From positions 68,693-132,692 of the forward strand of contig NZ_CDCE01000033.1 in NCBI RefSeq assembly GCF_000819805.1: 64,000 nucleotides of DNA. Reading direction: 5' to 3'. Below, in pieces: positions 51,510 to 59,100 of this stretch; position 1 is the stretch's first letter; each line of letters opens with the position of its first letter. Both the position numbers and the translations under genes were made by a program. Source of the DNA: Aeromonas diversa CDC 2478-85 (GTDB taxonomy: Bacteria > Pseudomonadota > Gammaproteobacteria > Enterobacterales > Aeromonadaceae). A model generated the notes under the pieces. The model saw nothing but the letters and a program-made list of their open reading frames with translations. It did no database searches and had not been told where the DNA came from.

Positions 51510-54500
51510 ATGGATATGAAAAAGACCAAGGTGGCACTGGCGATAGTGTCACTGCTTGCCCTATTGTCCGGATGTAACGGTAACGACTCCTCCACCACGG
51601 CGCCCGTGGTACCCCCCTCGGATGGCCCCGTGGCCCGTCTGCCCAATGTGACTCCACCCGGTGAGCTGGTGACCGCCGGCAAGAACGAGCTGGTGATCGC
51701 CCTGGTCGACACCCAGCGTGCCGCCGCCCGCAGTGCCGATGCGCCCTATACCGACTGGAGCATGCACCTGTGGAACAACGACGCCTGCAACGCCACCGAT
51801 CCGGCCGGCCTCAACAGCGATTGGAACGACAAGTCCAAGACGCCCCTCAAGTCTGACGGCTTCGGTCCTGCCTGGGTGATCCCCCTGGCCAAGGCCGAAG
51901 GGTGCATCAATTTCATCGCCCGTGACGGCAGCCTTGGCAAGCTGAGTAACGACCTCAAGGTGCAGCTGGCCGAACACGCGGATCACACCGTGGCCATCGT
52001 GGCCGGCAAGGATCAGATCTACGGCAGCCGCGCCGAGGCCTTCAGTGCCGCCTTCGGGGTGGCCGGGGCCAGCGCCCATCTCATCGACGGCGAGACCCTG
52101 ATCTGGGAAGGGGGCAAGGACAAGCCGCTGGTACGCCTCTACTACTCCGAGAGCGGTGCCATTGCGGCCAACGACAAGGGTGAATTTGTCTTCCCCTATA
52201 TCAGCCTCAAGCCGGTCGAACTGACCGAGGCTCAGAAGGCCAAGTATCCCCATCTCAAGGATAAGGCGGCCTTCCGCCTGCCGGCCGACCAGGATCTCAA
52301 GCCGCTGCTCAAGGGGGAATTGGTGGCCCTGGCGACCGATGGCGACGGCATACTGCAAGGGGCAACCCTGGTGCAGAGCGCCGGTGCCCTCGACGCCCTC
52401 TACGCCGGCAACGCCAAAGGGCTGGAGTACGGCGCCCTGGTCAAGGATGGCAAGGTGGCCTTCCGCCTCTGGGCGCCTACCGCCAAGTCAGTCAAGCTGG
52501 CCCTCTACGACGCCAAGCACCAGAAGGTAGGCGAGCAGGCCATGACCTATGACGCGGCCAGCGGCAGCTGGAGCTATCAGGGGGGCAGCGAGCTGGTGGG
52601 CAAGTTCTACCGCTACGCCATGGAGGTCTACCACCCGGTCAGCCGCATGCTGGAACGCTATGAGGTGACCGATCCCTACTCCCTGAGCCTCTCCATGAAC
52701 TCCGAGTTCAGCCAGGTGGTGGATCTCGAGGATCCGGCCCTCAAGCCGGCCGGTTGGGACAGCCTCAAGGCGCCCCACAGCCAGAGCAAGCCGGCCGACA
52801 TCACCATCTACGAGGCCCACGTGCGGGATCTCACCGGCAACGATGCCTCCACCGATACCGCCAAGCGCGGCAAGTTCGTCGGTCTGACCCAGGCCAGCTC
52901 GGTACCGGTGCAGCACCTCAAGTCCCTGGCCGAGGCCGGGGTGAGCCACCTTCACCTGCTGCCGGTGTTCGACATCGCGACCGTCAACGAGGATCCGGCC
53001 AAGGTAGTCAATCTGGACGACCCCTTCAGCAAGCTGTGTCAGGTCAATCCGGACGTGAAGAGCTCGGAATTTGCCGGCGACTGCGACGGCGGGCAGAGCG
53101 TGGAGCAGGTACTGGAGCGCCTCAAGGGGAGCGACAGCAAGGACTCGCCCAAGGTACAGGCCCTCTACGGCTACGTGCGCGGGGTGGATGCCTTCAACTG
53201 GGGTTATGACCCCTACCACTACACAGTGCCGGAAGGCTCGTACGCCACCAATGCCGAGGGGACGACCCGGATCAAGGAGTTCCGCGAGATGGTGCAATCC
53301 ATCAAGCAGGAGATCGGCATGAACGTGGTGATGGATGTGGTCTACAACCACACCAACGAGGCGGGTCTGGGCTCCAAGTCGGTGCTCGACAAGATAGTCC
53401 CCTGGTATTACCAGCGCCTCAATCCGGAAACCGGTGCGGTCGAGAACTCCACCTGCTGCTCCAACACGGCGCCGGAACACGCCATGTTCGCCAAGCTGAT
53501 CGAAGACTCCTTGGTTACCTGGGCCAAGGAGTACAAGGTCGATGCCTTCCGCTTCGACCTGATGGGCCACCATCCCAAGTCGCAGATGGTCGAGGCCCTG
53601 GCGGCGGTGAAGAAGGTGAACCCCGAGATGTACTTCTACGGCGAGGGCTGGAACTTCGGCGAGGTGGGGGACGACAAGCGTTTCGAGCAGGCGACCCAGA
53701 AACACCTGGCCGGCACCGGCATCGGCTCCTTCTCCGATCGCCTGCGTGACGCGGTGCGCGGCGGCAGCCCCTTCGACGGCGGCAATGGCCTGCGCGAGAG
53801 CCAGGGCTTCGGCAACGGTGCCTTCGTCTATCCCAACGAGATGAGCAAGGTGAGCAAGGCCCAGGCGCTGCACCTGGCCGACCTGACCCGTCTCGGCATG
53901 GCCGGCAACCTCAAGGCCTTCGTCCTGACCGACAAGGATGGCCTGCCCAAGCGCGGTGACGAGATCGACTACAACGGTCAGGCGGCCGGTTATGCCCAGG
54001 ATCCTGTCGAGATCCAGAACTATGTCTCCAAGCACGACAACCAGACCCTGTTCGACATCCTCGCCTACAAGGCTCCGGAGGGGGCGGATCTGGTGCGGAT
54101 GCAAGGGGTCTCGCTGGCCACTGTGCTGCTGGGGCAGGGCATTCCCTTCACCCACGCCGGCAGCGAACTGCTGCGCTCCAAGTCCATGGAGCGGGACAGC
54201 TATGACTCGGGTGACTGGTACAACAAGGTGGACTACACCCTGACCGACAACAACTTCGACAAGGGGTTGCCGCGCAAGGACAAGGACGAGGGGAACTACG
54301 ACCTGATCGAGCAGGTGCTGGCCAAACACGCCAAGCCGACCGGTGCCGACATGGCGCAGGTCAACGGCTTCTATCAGGAGCTGGTGCGTCTGCGCTACTC
54401 CACTCCTCTGCTGCGTCTGGGCAGTGGTGCCGAGGTGATCAAGCGGGTCGACTTCCGCAATACCGGACCGGATCAGGTGCCCGGGCTTATCGTCATGACC

Positions 54501-55142
54501 ATAGACGATGGCATCAAGGCCGGCGCCGATCTGGATGCCTCCGCCGACGGGGTGCTGGTGGTGATCAACGCCAGCAATGCCGAGCAGAGTGTCGGTCACT
54601 TCGTCGACGGGGATGGCCAGCCCATCGATCTCTCGACCCTGATCCGCAGCGACAGGCACGACGTGGCCGGCATCGCCGGTGACTCCCGTGTCGAAGGCGG
54701 CATGGTCAAGGTCTCTCCCTGGTCTGCCGCCCTCTTCGTCAAGCCCCAGAGCGCCGAGCGCAGCGGTCTGCCGGTTGGCAAGAAGGTCGATCTCGCTACC
54801 GTGCCGCCGTTTGGTACCACCAAGGTCTATCTGCGTGGCCTGTTGGGCCAGTGGGACGCGGTCAACGAGTTTGCCTTCGGCGGCAACTACGCCTATCAGT
54901 TCGCCACCGAGGTGGCGGCCGACAAGGTAGGGGCGACCGAAACCAAGGTGGCCGATGCCAACTGGGGCAGCCTCAACTACGGCAAGTGCAGCGACACCCC
55001 GACCCTGAAGGCCGGTGCGCAGGTCACCCTGTGCAAGAACGGCGACAATCTGGCCGTCGAGCTGGGCCAGACCGGCCGCTACACCTTCACCCTCAAGGCC
55101 CAGGACAAGGAGCATCCGACCCTGGCCCTGAGCCTGCAGTAA
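51510..55142 (+). CDS. pulA: Pullulanase-type GH13 lipoprotein
   Basis: The protein has 1210 residues from ATG 51510 (51516 is an alternative). The lipobox LLSGC gives Cys22, as in surface-anchored PulA. The N-terminal beta domains (about 60-290) are pullulanase-associated CBM-like; a CBM48-like region precedes the barrel. Catalytic regions: MDVVYNHTN (region I, about 606), FRFDLMGHH with nucleophile D683, YGEGWNF with acid/base E712, and VSKHDNQ with H842-D843. It debranches alpha-1,6 links in pullulan, starch or glycogen. A type II secretion signal cannot be read. Confidence 0.9.
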
Positions 55143-55220
55143 GGATCCCGGCCCACCTGCGGCTCGGCGCCTGTGGGTCCGCTTCCGCCTTGGGCGGAAT
55201 AACACCGAGAGAGTAAGAGA

Positions 55221-55249
55221 GGGGGCGCGGGAAACTGCGCCCCCTGTTT
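55221..55249 (+). terminator. Terminator after pulA
   Basis: An 8-bp stem GGGGGCGC / GCGCCCCC with loop GGGAAACT is followed by TGTTT, separating pulA from parM. Confidence 0.7.
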
Positions 55250-55335
55250 CGATTCAAGAAACGCGGTGCTTTGGTCGCTATGACAAACAAAACCGCCCTG
55301 CGAGGGCGCCGCGTTCACCTGCCGAGACTCTTCTG

Positions 55336-56376
55336 ATGACCCAAGCCCGAATCAAGTTCGCCATCGACGATGGCTCTACCAATGTCAAAGTCAGCTGGAT
55401 CGAGGGAGGCGTGCTCAAGACAGTGGTCTCTCCCAACTCCTTTCGCAAGGATTGGAAGAGCGCGGCCCTGCTGCGTGGCCAGAAGGTGTTCAACTACACC
55501 ATAGGCACCACCAAGTACACCTATGACGCCACCTCCGACAAGGCGCTCTCGACCACCCATATCGAATATCAGTACGACGATCTCAACCTGTTGGCGGTGC
55601 ACCACGCCCTGCTGCAGACCGGGATCGCGCCGTGCCCGGTCAGCGTGGTGGTGACCCTGCCCATCACCGAGTACTACAACCCGGACGACTGCCAGCGCAA
55701 CGAGGCCAAGATCGAGGCCAAGCGCCACAACCTGATGCGCGAGATCAGCCTCAACAAGGGCGAGCTGTTCCAGATCGTGGACGTGGAGGTGATGCCCGAG
55801 AGCCTGCCGGCTGTGCTCTCCCATCTGCTCGACTCCAACTGCAACGAGTTCACCAAGTCCCTGGTGATCGACTGTGGTGGCACTACCCTCGACATGGGGA
55901 TCATTGTGGGCGAGTTTGACGACGTCTCGGCCATCTACGGCAACAACGAGATCGGTGTCTCCATGGTGACCGATGCGGCGCGCAAGGCGCTGGCGGCAGC
56001 CGACAGTGACTCCAGCTACCTGGTGGCCAACGAGCTGATCAAGCGTCGTCTCGACAGCGCCTTCGTCCAGAGCGTGGTCAACGACGAGTCGCGCATCCCC
56101 GAGATCCTGCGCCGCATCGAGACCAAGATCCAGGAGCTGGGGGATCAGGTCGCCTTCGAGGCGAAGAAGTTCGCCAAGAACCCGAACCGGGTCTACCTGG
56201 TTGGCGGTGGCGCCCCCCTCATCGAGGCGGCGATCCGCGAGGCCTACCCGACCCTGGGTGAGCGGGTGATGATGATAGAGAATCCCCAGAGCGCTCTCTC
56301 CCGGGAGATCTGCCTCTACCACGCCGATGAGGCCACCGTCGATCTGGCCGAGCCCATGCTGCTCGAGGTCGAGTGA
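55336..56376 (+). CDS. parM: ParM/StbA-type actin-like segregation ATPase, chromosomal
   Basis: This 346-residue actin-fold ATPase has phosphate-1 loop IDDGSTNVKVSW (11-22), phosphate-2 loop LVIDCGGTTLDMG (176-188) and adenosine loop VYLVGGGAPLIE (286-297). Long stretches parallel R1 plasmid ParM: DDGSTN, VSPNSF-like SPNSFRKDW, KVFNYT, VAVHHALL, TLPLTEYY-like TLPITEYY, VMPES, LGGTTLDI-like CGGTTLDMG. ParM filaments push plasmid copies apart by contact with ParR-parC. The start is at 55336, with a weak Shine-Dalgarno. It overlaps the next gene by one base. No plasmid backbone genes are nearby. Confidence 0.85.
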   Translation: MTQARIKFAIDDGSTNVKVSWIEGGVLKTVVSPNSFRKDWKSAALLRGQKVFNYTIGTTKYTYDATSDKALSTTHIEYQYDDLNLLAVHHALLQTGIAPCPVSVVVTLPITEYYNPDDCQRNEAKIEAKRHNLMREISLNKGELFQIVDVEVMPESLPAVLSHLLDSNCNEFTKSLVIDCGGTTLDMGIIVGEFDDVSAIYGNNEIGVSMVTDAARKALAAADSDSSYLVANELIKRRLDSAFVQSVVNDESRIPEILRRIETKIQELGDQVAFEAKKFAKNPNRVYLVGGGAPLIEAAIREAYPTLGERVMMIENPQSALSREICLYHADEATVDLAEPMLLEVE

Positions 56377-57053
56377 TGAACCCGGGCAAGAAGCTCAACC
56401 TCTCCCTCTATCTCAACCCGGCACACAGCGCGGCGGACCAGCGTGCCGCCGGCGCACTGCAACAGTGGTACCTGGGCCTGCGCCAGAGTGGCAGCGAGCG
56501 GGACGACGTCAGCATGGCCATGCGGACCTTCCACCGTAGCGTCTACCTGGCCGGGCTGCAGCTCCACCTGCTGAGCCCCCGGCTCTGCCAGCACGTGGCC
56601 GAGTCCATCGGACGCGAGCCGCTGACCCTGGCCGAGCTCACCGCCGAGTTGCTGCGCTGCGAGCTGCTCCCCCGGGTCCCCGGGATGGAGGCCGAGGAGC
56701 AGGAGGCGAGCTTCTCCCCCCGCCAGCTGGAGCAGATCCAGCTGCTGCTGAGCCATGCCCGAGCCAGCGGCGAGACGGCGCGGGAGGTGGCCGGAGAGGC
56801 CCATGAGGTGCTGCTCGATAGCCTGCTGGAGGCGCAGCAGGCCGAGTTTGCCCAGCTGCGCGGCGAGCTGGAGCGGCTGCGCGCACTGGCCGAGCAGCAG
56901 GCGTTGCAGCTGCAGCAGCTGAGGCTGAGCGGCCGTGCTGTGACCGGTGCGGTCGAGAGCAGCCGGGGCAGCAGCACGGAGGAGATAAGCCTGGCCGAGA
57001 TGGCGCCACCGACCGAGAAGATGCAGAAGGTGAGGCAGAAGGGGATCTTCTGA
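56376..57053 (+). CDS. parR: ParR-like adaptor protein (large form)
   Basis: This protein has 225 residues from the ATG at 56376, sharing a base with the parM stop (TGATG). The opening KLNLSLYLNPAHSAADQRAA matches the N-terminal RHH beta-strand of R1 ParR (RTIAFKLNPDVNQTDK), and the next helices fit its DNA-binding fold. A long coiled-coil segment (about 150-185, LLEAQQAEFAQLRGELERLR) and a conserved-looking basic C-terminus (KMQKVRQKGIF) follow; in R1 ParR the C-tail contacts ParM. R1 ParR is only 117 residues, so this is an enlarged version. Function as the parC-binding adaptor is inferred. Confidence 0.65.
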   Translation: MNPGKKLNLSLYLNPAHSAADQRAAGALQQWYLGLRQSGSERDDVSMAMRTFHRSVYLAGLQLHLLSPRLCQHVAESIGREPLTLAELTAELLRCELLPRVPGMEAEEQEASFSPRQLEQIQLLLSHARASGETAREVAGEAHEVLLDSLLEAQQAEFAQLRGELERLRALAEQQALQLQQLRLSGRAVTGAVESSRGSSTEEISLAEMAPPTEKMQKVRQKGIF

Positions 57054-57059
57054 GACGAG

Positions 57060-57081
57060 AGAGCGTGGCACCGGCCACGCT
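57060..57081. terminator. Bidirectional terminator between parR and the DUF1294 gene
   Basis: Stem AGAGCGTGGC / GCCACGCTCT with loop CCGG-like ACCG, followed by TCTGTTTT on the plus strand. Confidence 0.78.
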
Positions 57082-57090
57082 CTTCTGTTT

Positions 57091-57438
57091 TCAGGGGTTG
57101 CTCCACCAGAGCAGGGCGGCGAAGAAGAGCAGGTTGCCGGCCACGCTCAGCCACAGCGGCAGCTTGTACTCTTTCTTGCTCGACTTGTGGCGCAGAAACT
57201 GGCGCGCCAGCAGGGCGCCGGGCCAGCCACCGAGCCAGCTCCAGGTGTGCAGGGTCTGCTCGGGGACGCGCTGGCGCTTGAGACGGGCGGCCCGCTTGTC
57301 CCAGCCATAGACCAGGAAGGTGAGCAGGCTCATGGCGGCATAGAAGAGGGCGACCGGCAGGGGCAGGTGGCGACTCAACACCAGCAGGGGCAGGGCCAGC
57401 AGCTGGCCGAGGGCGAGCAGGGTCTGAAAGCTGGTCAT
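57091..57438 (-). CDS. DUF1294 small membrane protein
   Basis: This 115-residue protein has three membrane segments (about 5-20, 27-48 and 95-112) and the DUF1294 core YGWDKRAARLKRQRVPE, then TLHTWSWLGGWPGALLARQF and RHKSSK. The family often occurs fused to a cold-shock domain, but no such domain is present. Its ATG abuts the arfB stop (TAG-ATG), so the two genes are co-transcribed and probably coupled. Function unknown. Confidence 0.83.
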   Translation of the reverse strand: MTSFQTLLALGQLLALPLLVLSRHLPLPVALFYAAMSLLTFLVYGWDKRAARLKRQRVPEQTLHTWSWLGGWPGALLARQFLRHKSSKKEYKLPLWLSVAGNLLFFAALLWWSNP

Positions 57439-57876
57439 CTAGTCTCCGATAGGGGCGCGGCGACCCGCCTTGATGGCCCCCTTGCGCTTTTTGGCGTCGA
57501 CCCGGCGCACCTGGGAGCCGCGGGTTGGTCGGGTGGCGTGGCGCGTCTTGGGCCGCTCGGCGGCCTTCTTGAGCAGGGTGAGCAGGCGCTCGATGGCCTC
57601 CTGACGGTTCATCTCCTGACTGCGATGACTCTCGCTGCGGATCAGGATGAAGCCATCGTGGACCCGGCTGTCGCGCAGGCGATCCAACCCCTCCTTGTAG
57701 TGATCTGGCAGGGTGGGGGAGGCGCGATAGTCAAAACGCAGCCAGACTGCGGAGTCGGTCTTGTTGACGTGCTGGCCGCCGGCCCCTTGGGCGCGCATGG
57801 TCTGGAACTGCAACTCGTGCCATGGCAACAGGCAGCGTTGCGAGACAAACAGGCCGTTGGGGGGAGGTGAAAGCAT
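57439..57876 (-). CDS. arfB: Alternative ribosome-rescue factor ArfB
   Basis: This 145-residue peptidyl-tRNA hydrolase rescues stalled ribosomes lacking a stop codon. The catalytic GGQ is at G33-G34-Q35 within RAQGAGGQHVNKTDSAV, and the basic C-terminal tail that enters the mRNA channel is present (TRPTRGSQVRRVDAKKRKGA). Length is close to E. coli ArfB (140). Start 57876 is preferred for length; 57900 is an in-frame alternative and neither has a strong Shine-Dalgarno. It differs from release factors by lacking their codon-recognition domain. Confidence 0.88.
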   Translation of the reverse strand: MLSPPPNGLFVSQRCLLPWHELQFQTMRAQGAGGQHVNKTDSAVWLRFDYRASPTLPDHYKEGLDRLRDSRVHDGFILIRSESHRSQEMNRQEAIERLLTLLKKAAERPKTRHATRPTRGSQVRRVDAKKRKGAIKAGRRAPIGD

Positions 57877-58092
57877 GGTGAAACTGTCGCTGTGGTGCAT
57901 GTCGTCAGCATTGTAATGCCTGTCTCTCCGAGGGTCGAATCCCGGTACACTCGCCTGTATAAATCCTGAATTTAATCGCAATCAAAAAAATATTTCCCGA
58001 TAGGAGATCTGGACTTGTGCGGAGTGGGAGAGTATGCAAAATACAAACGCGAATTATTGCTACTTGCACCCTAGCTCCAGGAACACGAAGAG

Positions 58093-59100
58093 ATGAAAAA
58101 GACACTGCTGGCTCTGATTTTCTCCGCCGTCGCCGCGCCTTCGGCCTTCGCCGCCCAAGAGGTGAACGTCTACTCCAACCGCCAGGATGAGCTGATCAAG
58201 CCCATCATCGAGCAGTTCGAGAAGGAGAGCGGCATCAAGGTGAACCTGGTGTTCGCCAAGGACGGGCTGACCGAGCGCCTGCAGCGCGAAGGCAAGCTGA
58301 CCCCGGCCGATCTGATGCTGACCACCGATATCAGCCGCCTGACCGAGCTGGTGGACAAAGACCTGGTGCAACCGGTGCAAAACAAGACTCTGGAGGAGAA
58401 CATCCCTGCCTCCCTGCGTGACCCCGATGATCGCTGGTTCGCCCTGACCACCCGGGTGCGTGCCATCTACTCCAGCAAGGATCGCCTCGGCAAGCTGGAC
58501 GCCATCAGCTATGAGGATCTGGCCAAGCCCGAGTACAAGGGCAAGGTCTGCGTACGCAGCGGCAAGAACGACTACAACGTTGCTCTGATTGCCTCCATGA
58601 TCGCCCACCACGGCAAGGCCGAGGCCAAGCAGTGGCTGGAAGGGGTCAAGGCCAACCTGGCTCGCAAGCCCCAGGGTAACGACCGGGATCAGGTCAAGGC
58701 GATCAAGGACGGGGTGTGTGACCTGTCGCTCGGCAACAGCTACTACCTCGGCAAGATGCTGGCCGACCCGGCCCAGAAGGCCTGGGCCGATGCCGTCTAC
58801 ATCAACTTCCCGAACCAGAAGGATCGCGGCGCCCACGTCAACGTGAGCGGCATGGCGATGACCAAGTACGCCAAGAACAAGGACGCCGCCGTCAAGCTGA
58901 TGGAGTTCCTCTCCGGTGACGAAGCCCAGCACCTCTATGCCGAGCTCAACACCGAGTATCCGGTCAAGCCGGGTGTCGAGCGCTCCGAGCTGGTCAAGTC
59001 CTGGGGTGACTTCAAGGCCGACAGCCTGGCGGTGAGCGACTACGCAAAACTGCGTAAGGACGCCCTGACGCTGCTGGATGAAGTGAAGTTCGATCTGTAA
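58093..59100 (+). CDS. fbpA: Ferric-iron ABC transporter, periplasmic binding protein
   Basis: This 335-residue class II binding protein has a signal peptide ending SAFAAQ. The fold opens EVNVYSNRQDELIKPIIEQF. The iron-binding tyrosine pair is in LGNSYYLGKML (about 215-225). It delivers Fe(III) to FbpBC. AAGAGATG gives weak Shine-Dalgarno support; CCAGGAAC is upstream. The AT-rich 5' region (57960-58060) might hold a Fur site, but no convincing 19-bp match was found. A small hairpin separates it from fbpB. Confidence 0.88.
   Translation: MKKTLLALIFSAVAAPSAFAAQEVNVYSNRQDELIKPIIEQFEKESGIKVNLVFAKDGLTERLQREGKLTPADLMLTTDISRLTELVDKDLVQPVQNKTLEENIPASLRDPDDRWFALTTRVRAIYSSKDRLGKLDAISYEDLAKPEYKGKVCVRSGKNDYNVALIASMIAHHGKAEAKQWLEGVKANLARKPQGNDRDQVKAIKDGVCDLSLGNSYYLGKMLADPAQKAWADAVYINFPNQKDRGAHVNVSGMAMTKYAKNKDAAVKLMEFLSGDEAQHLYAELNTEYPVKPGVERSELVKSWGDFKADSLAVSDYAKLRKDALTLLDEVKFDL

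Follow-up and report, generated by a model that had tools for sequence, protein, structure and literature searches.

A parM–parR pair with chromosomal neighbours

The window analysed here, a 64,000-nucleotide stretch of the Aeromonas diversa genome, contains two overlapping genes, parM and parR, whose products and recognisable parts are as follows.

55336..56376, + strand: parM, an open frame of 346 aa; actin-like ATPase of the R1 ParM family
55366..55383, + strand: first phosphate loop, DDGSTN (residues 11-16); identical in the R1 ParM alignment
55867..55893, + strand: second phosphate loop, IDCGGTTLD (residues 178-186); aligned R1 ParM, IDLGGTTLD
56197..56223, + strand: nucleotide (adenosine) motif, LVGGGAPLI (residues 288-296); aligned R1 ParM, VIGGGAELI
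56376..57053, + strand: parR, 225 aa; in the examined relatives, a homologous ORF follows parM
56376..56669, + strand: ParR N-terminal ribbon-helix-helix-like domain (residues 1-98), by family matches to PF10784 and 2jd3
56670..57014, + strand: variable ParR linker (residues 99-213), with a Leu/Gln-rich, possibly coiled-coil stretch inside
57015..57050, + strand: conserved ParR C-terminal tail (residues 214-225), ending KVRQKGIF

The assignment of ParM is secure. Pfam finds StbA_N (2.8e-59) and ParM_N (9.6e-37), both above their gathering scores, and residues 9-320 match R1 ParM chains in the PDB at 2.3e-67. The initial annotation, made from the letters of the window, had described a ParM with all three actin-fold loops and R1 ParM-like stretches, coupled to parR by a one-base overlap; the loops are found at the residues given above, the likeness to R1 ParM is borne out by the PDB match, and the parM stop and the parR ATG start have one common base, 56376, in TGATG. 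The pair thus has the ParM/StbA domain with nucleotide motifs, and the adjoining adaptor gene, of a ParMRC system, Pfam support being weak for the window ParR alone.

That ParR, taken singly, matches PF10784 at E=0.0018, under the cut-off. Across the family, 23 of 59 members match PF10784 at E<=0.01 (best 6.7e-13), and the first PDB match of the family profile is the ParR/StbB structure 2jd3 (8.3e-5). From this kinship, the N-terminal domain is predicted to have the ribbon-helix-helix fold. H53, Y57 and G60 are invariant among the 59 sequences. Residue 6 is R in 85% and S10 is conserved in 80%; both should lie in the presumed DNA-contacting first strand, whose position is assumed from the family. 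Conservation is low at residues 99-150 and 186-213 and moderate at 151-185; the Leu/Gln-rich stretch, judged by eye, is possibly a coiled coil. The extreme C-terminus fits [KR]x[KR]G[ILV][FW] in 81 of 81 chromosomal ParRs and in 0 of 3 plasmid ParRs, and two further, more divergent chromosomal ParRs end in KKLF and KKIF. By analogy with R1 ParR, this tail is presumably the ParM-contacting peptide. ParR had also been described as twice the usual size, which is true against the 128 aa protein of a Providencia IncC plasmid and the 130 aa of 2jd3. Other plasmid ParRs, however, have 159 and 223 aa, so size alone is not special and we dropped it as a distinguishing feature.

The neighbours in the window (pullulanase, DUF1294, an RF-1-domain, ArfB-like protein, a solute-binding protein and a Dyp peroxidase) are ordinary chromosomal genes, as had been noted. 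Plasmid carriage, the remaining mark of ParMRC, is not what we find: the window belongs to a 182 kb contig with these chromosomal neighbours, and the pairs of several relatives sit on single contigs of 4.5-5.1 Mb. The synteny pulA-parM-parR-arfB, which the initial annotation had proposed to follow, is complete (with DUF1294) in A. simiae, but is only a local order: Aeromonas sp. RU39B has in common with the window only the DUF1294-arfB side, within up to 8 kb examined, and sixteen other genomes of the genus hold the pair at another site. The main-clade site was examined in 14 of the 17 parM-less genomes; in 12 of these the same two neighbours are separated by a clean 70-94 bp, in one by 588 bp with no recognisable relic, and in one the site is ended by the contig.

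The wider family is likewise chromosomal. It spans several gammaproteobacterial families, with ParM 70-88% identical across 80 loci and ParR as the fast-evolving partner; apparent stops in the ParM of two genomes of an order-wide sample leave the genes uninterrupted. In a quick ParM tree with one kind of support, a starred set of 26 rows holds 4 window-clade, 18 enterobacterial lafU-linked, 3 enterobacterial standalone and 1 plasmid row. Because the plasmid rows are very long-branched, one of them running past its stop, only the grouping of the chromosomal rows was used. The initial reading of a stable chromosomal copy stands: this is a genuine, conserved chromosomal ParM/ParR without a visible parC, widespread on chromosomes and intact in close relatives, neither confined to recently integrated plasmids nor decayed.

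The region upstream of parM

Three features lie between pulA and parM.

55220..55245, + strand: terminator-like hairpin of pulA, a 9-nt perfect inverted repeat upstream of the pair
55254..55281, + strand: candidate lateral sigma-28 (LafS-type) promoter, TCAAGAAA-N12-GTCGCTAT, by likeness to lafA promoters
55260..55315, no strand: 10-nt imperfect inverted repeat (arms 55260-55269 and 55306-55315, 90% complementary), overlapping the candidate promoter

As the initial annotation had it, no parC is visible here: a search of 55143-55335 found no direct repeats, and a tandem-repeat search over 53300-59100, of the kind it had proposed, returned only one 2-copy 9-mer, inside pulA. In a k-mer test for parC, 1 of 87 regions (84 upstream of parM in the loci, 3 of the window) clearly stands out, the test being a weak one that barely detected plasmid controls and that degenerate repeats could escape. 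In a single Ferrimonas locus a 10-mer occurs five times upstream, where 40 shuffles gave no more than 3. The inverted repeat in the window is a possible operator, and a chance origin is conceivable.

The two lafA promoters of the same genome, TCAAGTTT-N12-GTCGCGTT and TCAATTTT-N12-GTCGCTTT, both resemble the candidate promoter. Candidates were found, and training boxes picked, with a hand-weighted score on the lafA boxes; significance was taken instead from 300 shuffles scored with a matrix trained on lafA promoters alone. The window site scores 7.0 bits, a level that 11 of the 300 shuffles reach, so the LafS-type promoter is no more than suggestive here. Most of the standalone Shewanella and Ferrimonas copies tested have a strong lafA-like site (0-4 of 300 shuffles) before parM, with 4 of 6 representatives in the first genus and 3 of 4 in the second; so does Aeromonas sp. 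RU39B. The site is only suggestive in A. simiae (14 of 300) and weak in four main-clade Aeromonas (16-66). Such a promoter is unsupported, by the same count, in Hafnia (191), an Aeromonadaceae MAG (274), Dryocola (71), a Buttiauxella MAG (33), Moritella (97), Ferrimonas marina (136), the Photobacterium DA100 replicon (121) and the other two Shewanella (45 and 72), which have an N11 site instead. An operon-linked Photobacterium locus also reaches 3 of 300, though no promoter of its own is expected there. A scan with the plain E. coli FliA consensus was not significant before parM at most loci.

The pair accompanies lateral flagella

ParM is present in 20 of 37 Aeromonas genomes and ParR in the identical 20. 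Lateral-type FlhA (887-910 bits) and lateral flagellin (at least 227 bits) occur in exactly the same 20 genomes, and none of the four proteins is found at those scores in the other 17. The two loci are widely separated in three closed genomes (4.54-4.55 Mb), where parM and lateral flhA lie at 3,896,265 and 459,076, at 1,517,668 and 4,112,526, and at 3,023,503 and 430,271, or 1.1-2.0 Mb apart by the shorter way if circular. On a gyrB+parE tree of the genus, in which one genome (G049) is represented by gyrB only, the joint ParM/lateral label requires 11 changes, 10 of them forced by well-supported branches, and all 10 of 10 independent genome pairs agree for ParM and lateral flagella.

The association extends beyond the genus. 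This ParM (at least 62% identity) is present in 18 of 297 genomes sampled across the order, and a lateral-type FlhA is found in every one of these, scoring 800 bits or more in 16 and 733.5 and 739.7 in the other two; the 800-bit line was drawn from the genus, the 730-bit line after the scores were seen. Overall, 41 of the 297 reach 730 bits. Outside the genus, 6 of 8 ParM genomes are lateral-positive at the 800-bit line. Seven genomes have distant ParMs (26-49% identical), none of them with a lateral-type FlhA. Conversely, 22 of 38 genomes with FlhA at 800 bits or more are without this ParM, so lateral flagella do not, as a general rule, need the pair. Among 35 parM genomes reached through the loci, lateral FlhA is intact in 34 and in pieces in one (two of the genome samples share one genome).

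Flagellar genes lie within 3 kb of parM in 39 of the 80 loci (lafU in 33, fliJ in 4, flhB in 2), in several arrangements. At the other 41, none of 15 flagellar genes sought was found within the up to 8 kb examined; the parM genomes that have none within 8 kb nonetheless carry an intact lateral FlhA in 25 of 25 cases. Neighbours checked by Pfam at representative loci include MotB, MotA, sigma-70, FliF, FliG, a FliI-type ATPase, FliJ, FlhB and FliP. In two further genomes, fliE-F-G-H-I or F-G-H-I is followed by parM-parR; in another, parM-parR is followed by fliM/N-type, fliN-type, fliP ... flhB, flhA. In Enterobacteriaceae, Photobacterium, Vibrio and others, the pair sits inside or beside lateral/Flag-2 loci. 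At 18 enterobacterial loci, a gene for NlpC/P60, a wall-enzyme type of domain, stands between lafU and parM.

In the genomes searched, then, the pair goes with lateral flagellar genes, and relatives that lack these genes lack the pair as well; no report of such a link was found in the literature searched. The initial annotation had supposed that the chromosomal copy might segregate something else or act as a new filament system. Its chromosomal pair and the direction of its interpretation hold up; the association with lateral flagella, located outside the window, it did not reach.

Discussion

The joint gain and loss of parMR and lateral flagella suggests that these flagella have recruited the filament for their own use. 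We think it probable that ParM and ParR form a cytoskeleton, belonging to the type II par family known from plasmids, in the service of gammaproteobacterial lateral (swarming) flagella. In such a system, parMR would likely be turned on with the late lateral-flagellar genes, either from a LafS-type sigma-28 promoter or, at loci inside a lateral flagellar operon, by read-through. ParM would, with high probability, form ATP-driven filaments whose ends ParR holds through its conserved C-terminal tail. More tentatively, the likeliest cargo is the lateral flagellar machinery itself: the N-domain of ParR and its variable linker may tie the filament to it, and basal bodies or linked arrays would then be distributed over the length of the elongated swarmer and divided between the daughters. 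The full proposal, in which a plasmid-partition actin has become a dedicated spatial organiser that places and shares lateral basal bodies (or linked arrays) through fast-evolving ParRs, is possible but somewhat doubtful. Basal bodies, DNA and cell shape are all candidates for what the filament acts on, none of them proven.

The kinship of ParR to DNA-binding ParRs means that a DNA cargo fits equally well. ParR might bind chromosomal sites, and ParM move or space the nucleoids of long, multinucleate swarmers, with expression still tied to lateral flagella. The conservation of residue 6 and S10 in the assumed DNA-contacting strand is in line with this idea, as are the repeated 10-mers of the Ferrimonas locus. 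On the other hand, the window has no iterated repeats and only one of the regions in the (weak) k-mer test was clear; moreover, joint loss with lateral flagella is unexplained unless the need for segregation is confined to swarmers. Overall, we judge segregation of the chromosome or of a locus to be rather improbable.

It is also conceivable that the pair acts on cell shape, with membrane-associated ParM filaments, anchored by ParR, that elongate or stiffen swarmers. FcmBC, a chromosomal ParM-derived pair with a role in morphology, is a direct precedent (PMC12645912), and V. parahaemolyticus swarmers are described as elongating, with division halted, while they produce lateral flagella (PMC5090175). 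The NlpC/P60 gene at the enterobacterial loci would suit such a role, but in the other arrangements the pair's closest neighbours belong to the basal body, export apparatus and motor rather than to the wall, and we consider this explanation unlikely. A regulatory role is highly doubtful. ParR could be a ribbon-helix-helix repressor of late lateral-flagellar genes, its activity set by ParM, in keeping with its DNA-binding kin and with the inverted repeat across the candidate promoter; however, a repressor would not need so complete and highly conserved an actin-like ATPase, nor a conserved tail that resembles a filament-binding peptide. Finally, unrelated cargo genes do gather in enterobacterial flag-2 loci (PMC6993521), but that the pair is hitchhiking cargo or a plasmid remnant, functionless in its host, is barely credible in view of exact co-occurrence despite unlinked loci, clean joint absences scattered on the tree, and the level of ParM identity kept across families; we rejected the plasmid-remnant reading on the grounds that many genera carry the family on their chromosomes, in a distribution that tracks another chromosomal system.

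Returning to a cytoskeleton that serves lateral flagella, several known systems can be compared with it. R1-type ParMRC has a homologous ParM with all nucleotide motifs, and its ParR gene, of the PF10784/StbB family, likewise overlaps or adjoins parM. The present pair differs in being chromosomal, conserved across families and tied to lateral flagella, in its lack of parC-like repeats found in the window, and in its larger, hypervariable ParR with a C-terminal tail of its own. Closer in setting are the cParMs of Desulfitobacterium, Clostridium and others, described as chromosomal, usually with an adjacent ParR, and conserved in some genera, their role being unknown (PMC12270681). The systems in Figure 1 of that paper come from Firmicutes-type genera and from one Burkholderia, on its third chromosome; gamma-proteobacteria appear there for plasmid ParMs, the words Aeromonas and Shewanella are absent, and the passages covered make no link to flagella. 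FcmBC of Nostoc punctiforme is, as described, a ParM pair of plasmid type that has taken on a non-segregation role on the chromosome, in cell shape, with an adaptor that localises the filament; it differs in serving the morphology of filamentous cyanobacteria, with no lateral flagella, and the likeness is drawn from description, not from sequence (PMC12645912). For lateral/Flag-2 systems, the core genes listed in the passages covered do not include parMR, and ParM, StbA and partition are absent from the main texts of the papers concerned (PMC6993521, PMC7526173).

A large chromosomal ParM family now has a specific, testable partner system. If the proposed role is correct, type II par actins gain an organelle-placement function that bears on the positioning and inheritance of many lateral flagella in swarmers, with candidate genes identified in tractable marine and enteric bacteria. 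ParA/MinD-type systems place polar flagella and chemotaxis arrays; the ParM/ParR pair would be their filament-driven counterpart.

The parM–parR pair and its relatives

The pair, made up of a gene for an actin-like ATPase and a gene for its adaptor, occupies these positions in the window:

55336–56376, + strand: parM, encoding a full-length R1-type ParM by domain and structure-sequence matches
56376–57053, + strand: parR, one base being common to the end of parM and the start of parR

The nucleotide motifs of the window ParM all lie at the expected places. Taken singly, the window ParR matches PF10784 weakly. Among 59 members of its family, 23 match this domain at E ≤ 0.01 (best, 6.7e-13), and the first structure found with a profile of all 59 is 2jd3 (ParR/StbB; E 8.3e-5). 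Such a protein is built of three zones: its N-terminal domain is conserved, the linker behind it varies, and a short tail forms the C-terminus. A single tail pattern fits 81/81 chromosomal ParRs versus 0/3 plasmid ParRs compared, and two more divergent chromosomal relatives have KKLF or KKIF as their C-terminal ends.

A scan for relatives, which took one genome per species and detects close relatives only, gave 86 confirmed loci, of which 80 were kept, with 70–88% identity to the window ParM. By record title, the carriers include Enterobacteriaceae genera, Hafnia, Pantoea, Aeromonas, Photobacterium, Vibrio, Enterovibrio, Shewanella, Ferrimonas, Moritella and others. When the window and a 2.1 Mb Photobacterium replicon (L040) are added, parM is followed by a ParR of the same family in 81 of 82 loci; the sole exception is L054, where the contig stops too early. 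The initial annotation took the pair to be chromosomal, a reading that an occurrence only on recently integrated plasmids would have contradicted. The pair is widespread in many genera, and four of the 80 loci lie on single contigs of 4.6–5.1 Mb. Among the best 5000 plasmid records, one has a ParM at 60–80% identity, namely the Photobacterium replicon, which is also the only match in a plasmid search with the window ParR; the other 4999 fall below 60%, as do all 16 phage records with a ParM match. We therefore reject the idea that the pair is a plasmid relic. One record, titled Marinobacter nauticus DP3N21-5, has genes around parM largely like those of Ferrimonas balearica DP5N7-6; either a wrong title or a mixed assembly could account for this.

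The initial annotation also saw no parC, the iterated-repeat site of plasmid systems, and no parC-like repeats were found in the window, with the reservation that the k-mer test used barely detects the plasmid controls. Of the 87 regions tested, a parC-like array stands out most clearly in Ferrimonas sediminum, where a 10-mer occurs five times within 300 bp upstream of parM (≤3 in 40 shuffles).

Co-occurrence with lateral flagella

All 37 Aeromonas genomes were searched. ParM is found in 20, ParR in the identical 20, and a lateral-type second FlhA (887–910 bits; polar copy, 660–688) in exactly those 20 (Fisher p 6e-11, without tree correction). Lateral flagellin at ≥227 bits marks the same 20 genomes, with a small margin, since the lowest scores 228 bits (49% identity) and polar flagellins reach 196 bits (45%). 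Mapping the shared state onto a gyrB+parE tree takes 11 changes, of which well-supported branches force 10, and independent pairs agree in 10 of 10 cases (sign test p 0.002). The two loci are unlinked in the genus. In three closed genomes of 4.54–4.55 Mb, parM versus lateral flhA lies at 3.90 versus 0.46, 1.52 versus 4.11 and 3.02 versus 0.43 Mb, or 1.1–2.0 Mb apart by the short way if the genomes are circular. The position of the pair in the main Aeromonas clade (16 parM genomes) was compared with 14 of the 17 genomes that lack it: in 12, the same neighbours are separated by 70–94 bp; in one, by 588 bp with a 100-aa ORF that has no significant ParM or ParR match; and in the remaining one, a contig end interrupts the site. 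One genome, that of A. salmonicida, has both a ParR frame broken up into two ORFs and a stop inside its lateral flagellin match, as if pair and flagella were decaying jointly.

As a loose control, FlhA-like proteins at 335–372 bits, taken by score to be of the type III secretion type, occur in 9/20 ParM genomes versus 1/17 others, an enrichment far from exact. Beyond its polar and lateral FlhA, the window genome itself encodes two FlhA-like proteins on contig C29 (335–336 bits), probably of this type by score.

The association extends beyond the genus. In an order-wide sample of 297 genomes, 19 of them Aeromonas, this ParM (≥62% identity) is present in 18. Each of these also has a lateral-type FlhA, scoring ≥800 bits in 16 genomes and 733.5 and 739.7 in the other two; overall, lateral-type FlhA is found in 38 genomes at ≥800 bits or 41 at ≥730. 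More distant ParMs (26–49%) occur in seven genomes, none with lateral-type FlhA. Outside the genus, lateral-type FlhA accompanies ParM in 8/8 genomes versus 31/278 overall at ≥730 bits (p 1e-8), and in 6/8 versus 28/278 at ≥800 bits (p 1.5e-5). The 730-bit line was set after the scores were known; it is backed by genome G244, where flagellar genes surround the FlhA in question, some 4 kb away from parM. Since 22 genomes have lateral FlhA (≥800 bits) without this ParM, including three from another genus of the same family (G060, G109, G237), the dependence is one-way.

A second set was based on loci and comprised 36 records, 35 from the 80 scan loci plus the Photobacterium replicon. Lateral FlhA is intact in 34 of the 35 genomes, the Kluyvera copy being in pieces; none was found on the replicon, whose sequence alone was searched. 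The two samples overlap by at least one genome, that of the Moritella locus, with equal FlhA place and score in both.

Gene neighbourhood and promoters

Proteins of 15 flagellar gene groups were compared with the 80 loci, up to 8 kb on each side (at L113, 0.4 kb upstream of parM was covered). Flagellar genes lie within 3 kb of parM at 39 loci, and none of the 15 groups was found at 41; in the locus-based set, lateral FlhA is intact in 25 of 25 genomes whose parM locus has none of them. The enterobacterial order (18 loci) is fliD-fliS...lafS-lafT-lafU-(NlpC/P60)-parM-parR. In Photobacterium and Enterovibrio (15 loci), lafU lies upstream of the pair, at some loci with one or two FliB-like genes in between (by eye, with no Pfam match). 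Four loci read fliF-G-H-I-J-parM-parR, and flhB-fliR-fliQ-fliP adjoin the pair in two Vibrio loci. Two further genomes have the pair directly 3′ of fliI within the fli series (in G133, FliE and FliG are confirmed), and in G064 parM-parR is followed by two FliM/FliN-type genes, then fliP, onward to flhA. For representatives, Pfam matches confirmed MotB, MotA, sigma factor, NlpC/P60, FliF, FliG, export ATPase, FliJ, FlhB and FliP; the remaining names were assigned by eye, and the label "lateral" follows PMC6993521 in relying on gene order, together with the lateral-type FlhA of the same genomes. The window genome has a FliB-like gene (by eye) beside several flagellin copies in its lateral flagellar cluster (contig C20, ~137695–138984), which recalls the Photobacterium loci with such genes adjoining parM.

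The commonest form of the lateral flagellin promoter in the genus is TCAA(G/T)TYT-N12-GTCG. A matrix built from 14 distinct boxes was scored against 300 shuffles per site (Table).

Table. Matrix sites before parM (shuffles of 300 reaching the score)
Aeromonas sp. RU39B (standalone parM, as in the next two rows): 0
Shewanella, 4 of 6 representatives: 0–1
Ferrimonas, 3 of 4 representatives: 0–4
Weaker: window 11; A. simiae 14; four main-clade Aeromonas 16–66
Operon-linked or Vibrio, 8 representatives: P. aquae 3; P. lipolyticum 9; others ≥19
Unsupported: Hafnia 191; Aeromonadaceae MAG 274; Dryocola 71; Buttiauxella MAG 33; Moritella 97; F. marina 136; Photobacterium replicon 121; two other Shewanella 45, 72

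A near-canonical TAAAGTTT-N11-G(C/T)CG site is present at three Shewanella loci. The window score is reached at 21 of 127,946 window positions, its own site counted, so taken alone this site is no proof of a promoter; A. simiae and RU39B have a site at the corresponding place. Gene position, and in part the promoter, support the view that the pair would be expressed together with lateral flagella.

History and possible function

In a quick ParM tree (SH-aLRT 98–99; plasmid rows, being unreliable, were left out of the reading), the window clade falls with Enterobacteriaceae and not with the remaining Aeromonas, whose ParMs join the fliJ-linked enterobacterial form. The pair has therefore probably been transferred between families, its tie to lateral flagella kept each time.

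R1 ParM forms filaments that ParR captures. By homology, the pair described here would do likewise. Its place among ring, export and motor genes leads us to favour basal bodies or linked arrays as the putative cargo. It is also possible that the cargo is DNA, as ParR retains kinship to DNA-binding ParRs.

As far as our searches go, with subscription journals thinly covered, a link between ParM/ParR and lateral flagella is unreported. The main text of two genome surveys of secondary flagella makes no mention of ParM, StbA or partition (PMC7526173, PMC6993521). On chromosomal or cyanobacterial ParMs, the only relevant papers in the searched literature are PMC12270681 and PMC12645912. The former describes chromosomal ParMs of unknown role; it brings up gamma-proteobacteria for plasmid ParMs, and neither Aeromonas nor Shewanella is named in it. 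Placement of lateral arrays in V. parahaemolyticus swarmers is attributed, in PMC5090175, to a mechanism other than ParC. A possible role for the pair in cell-shape control has a precedent in FcmBC, the chromosomal ParM-derived pair of Nostoc punctiforme, as described in PMC12645912.
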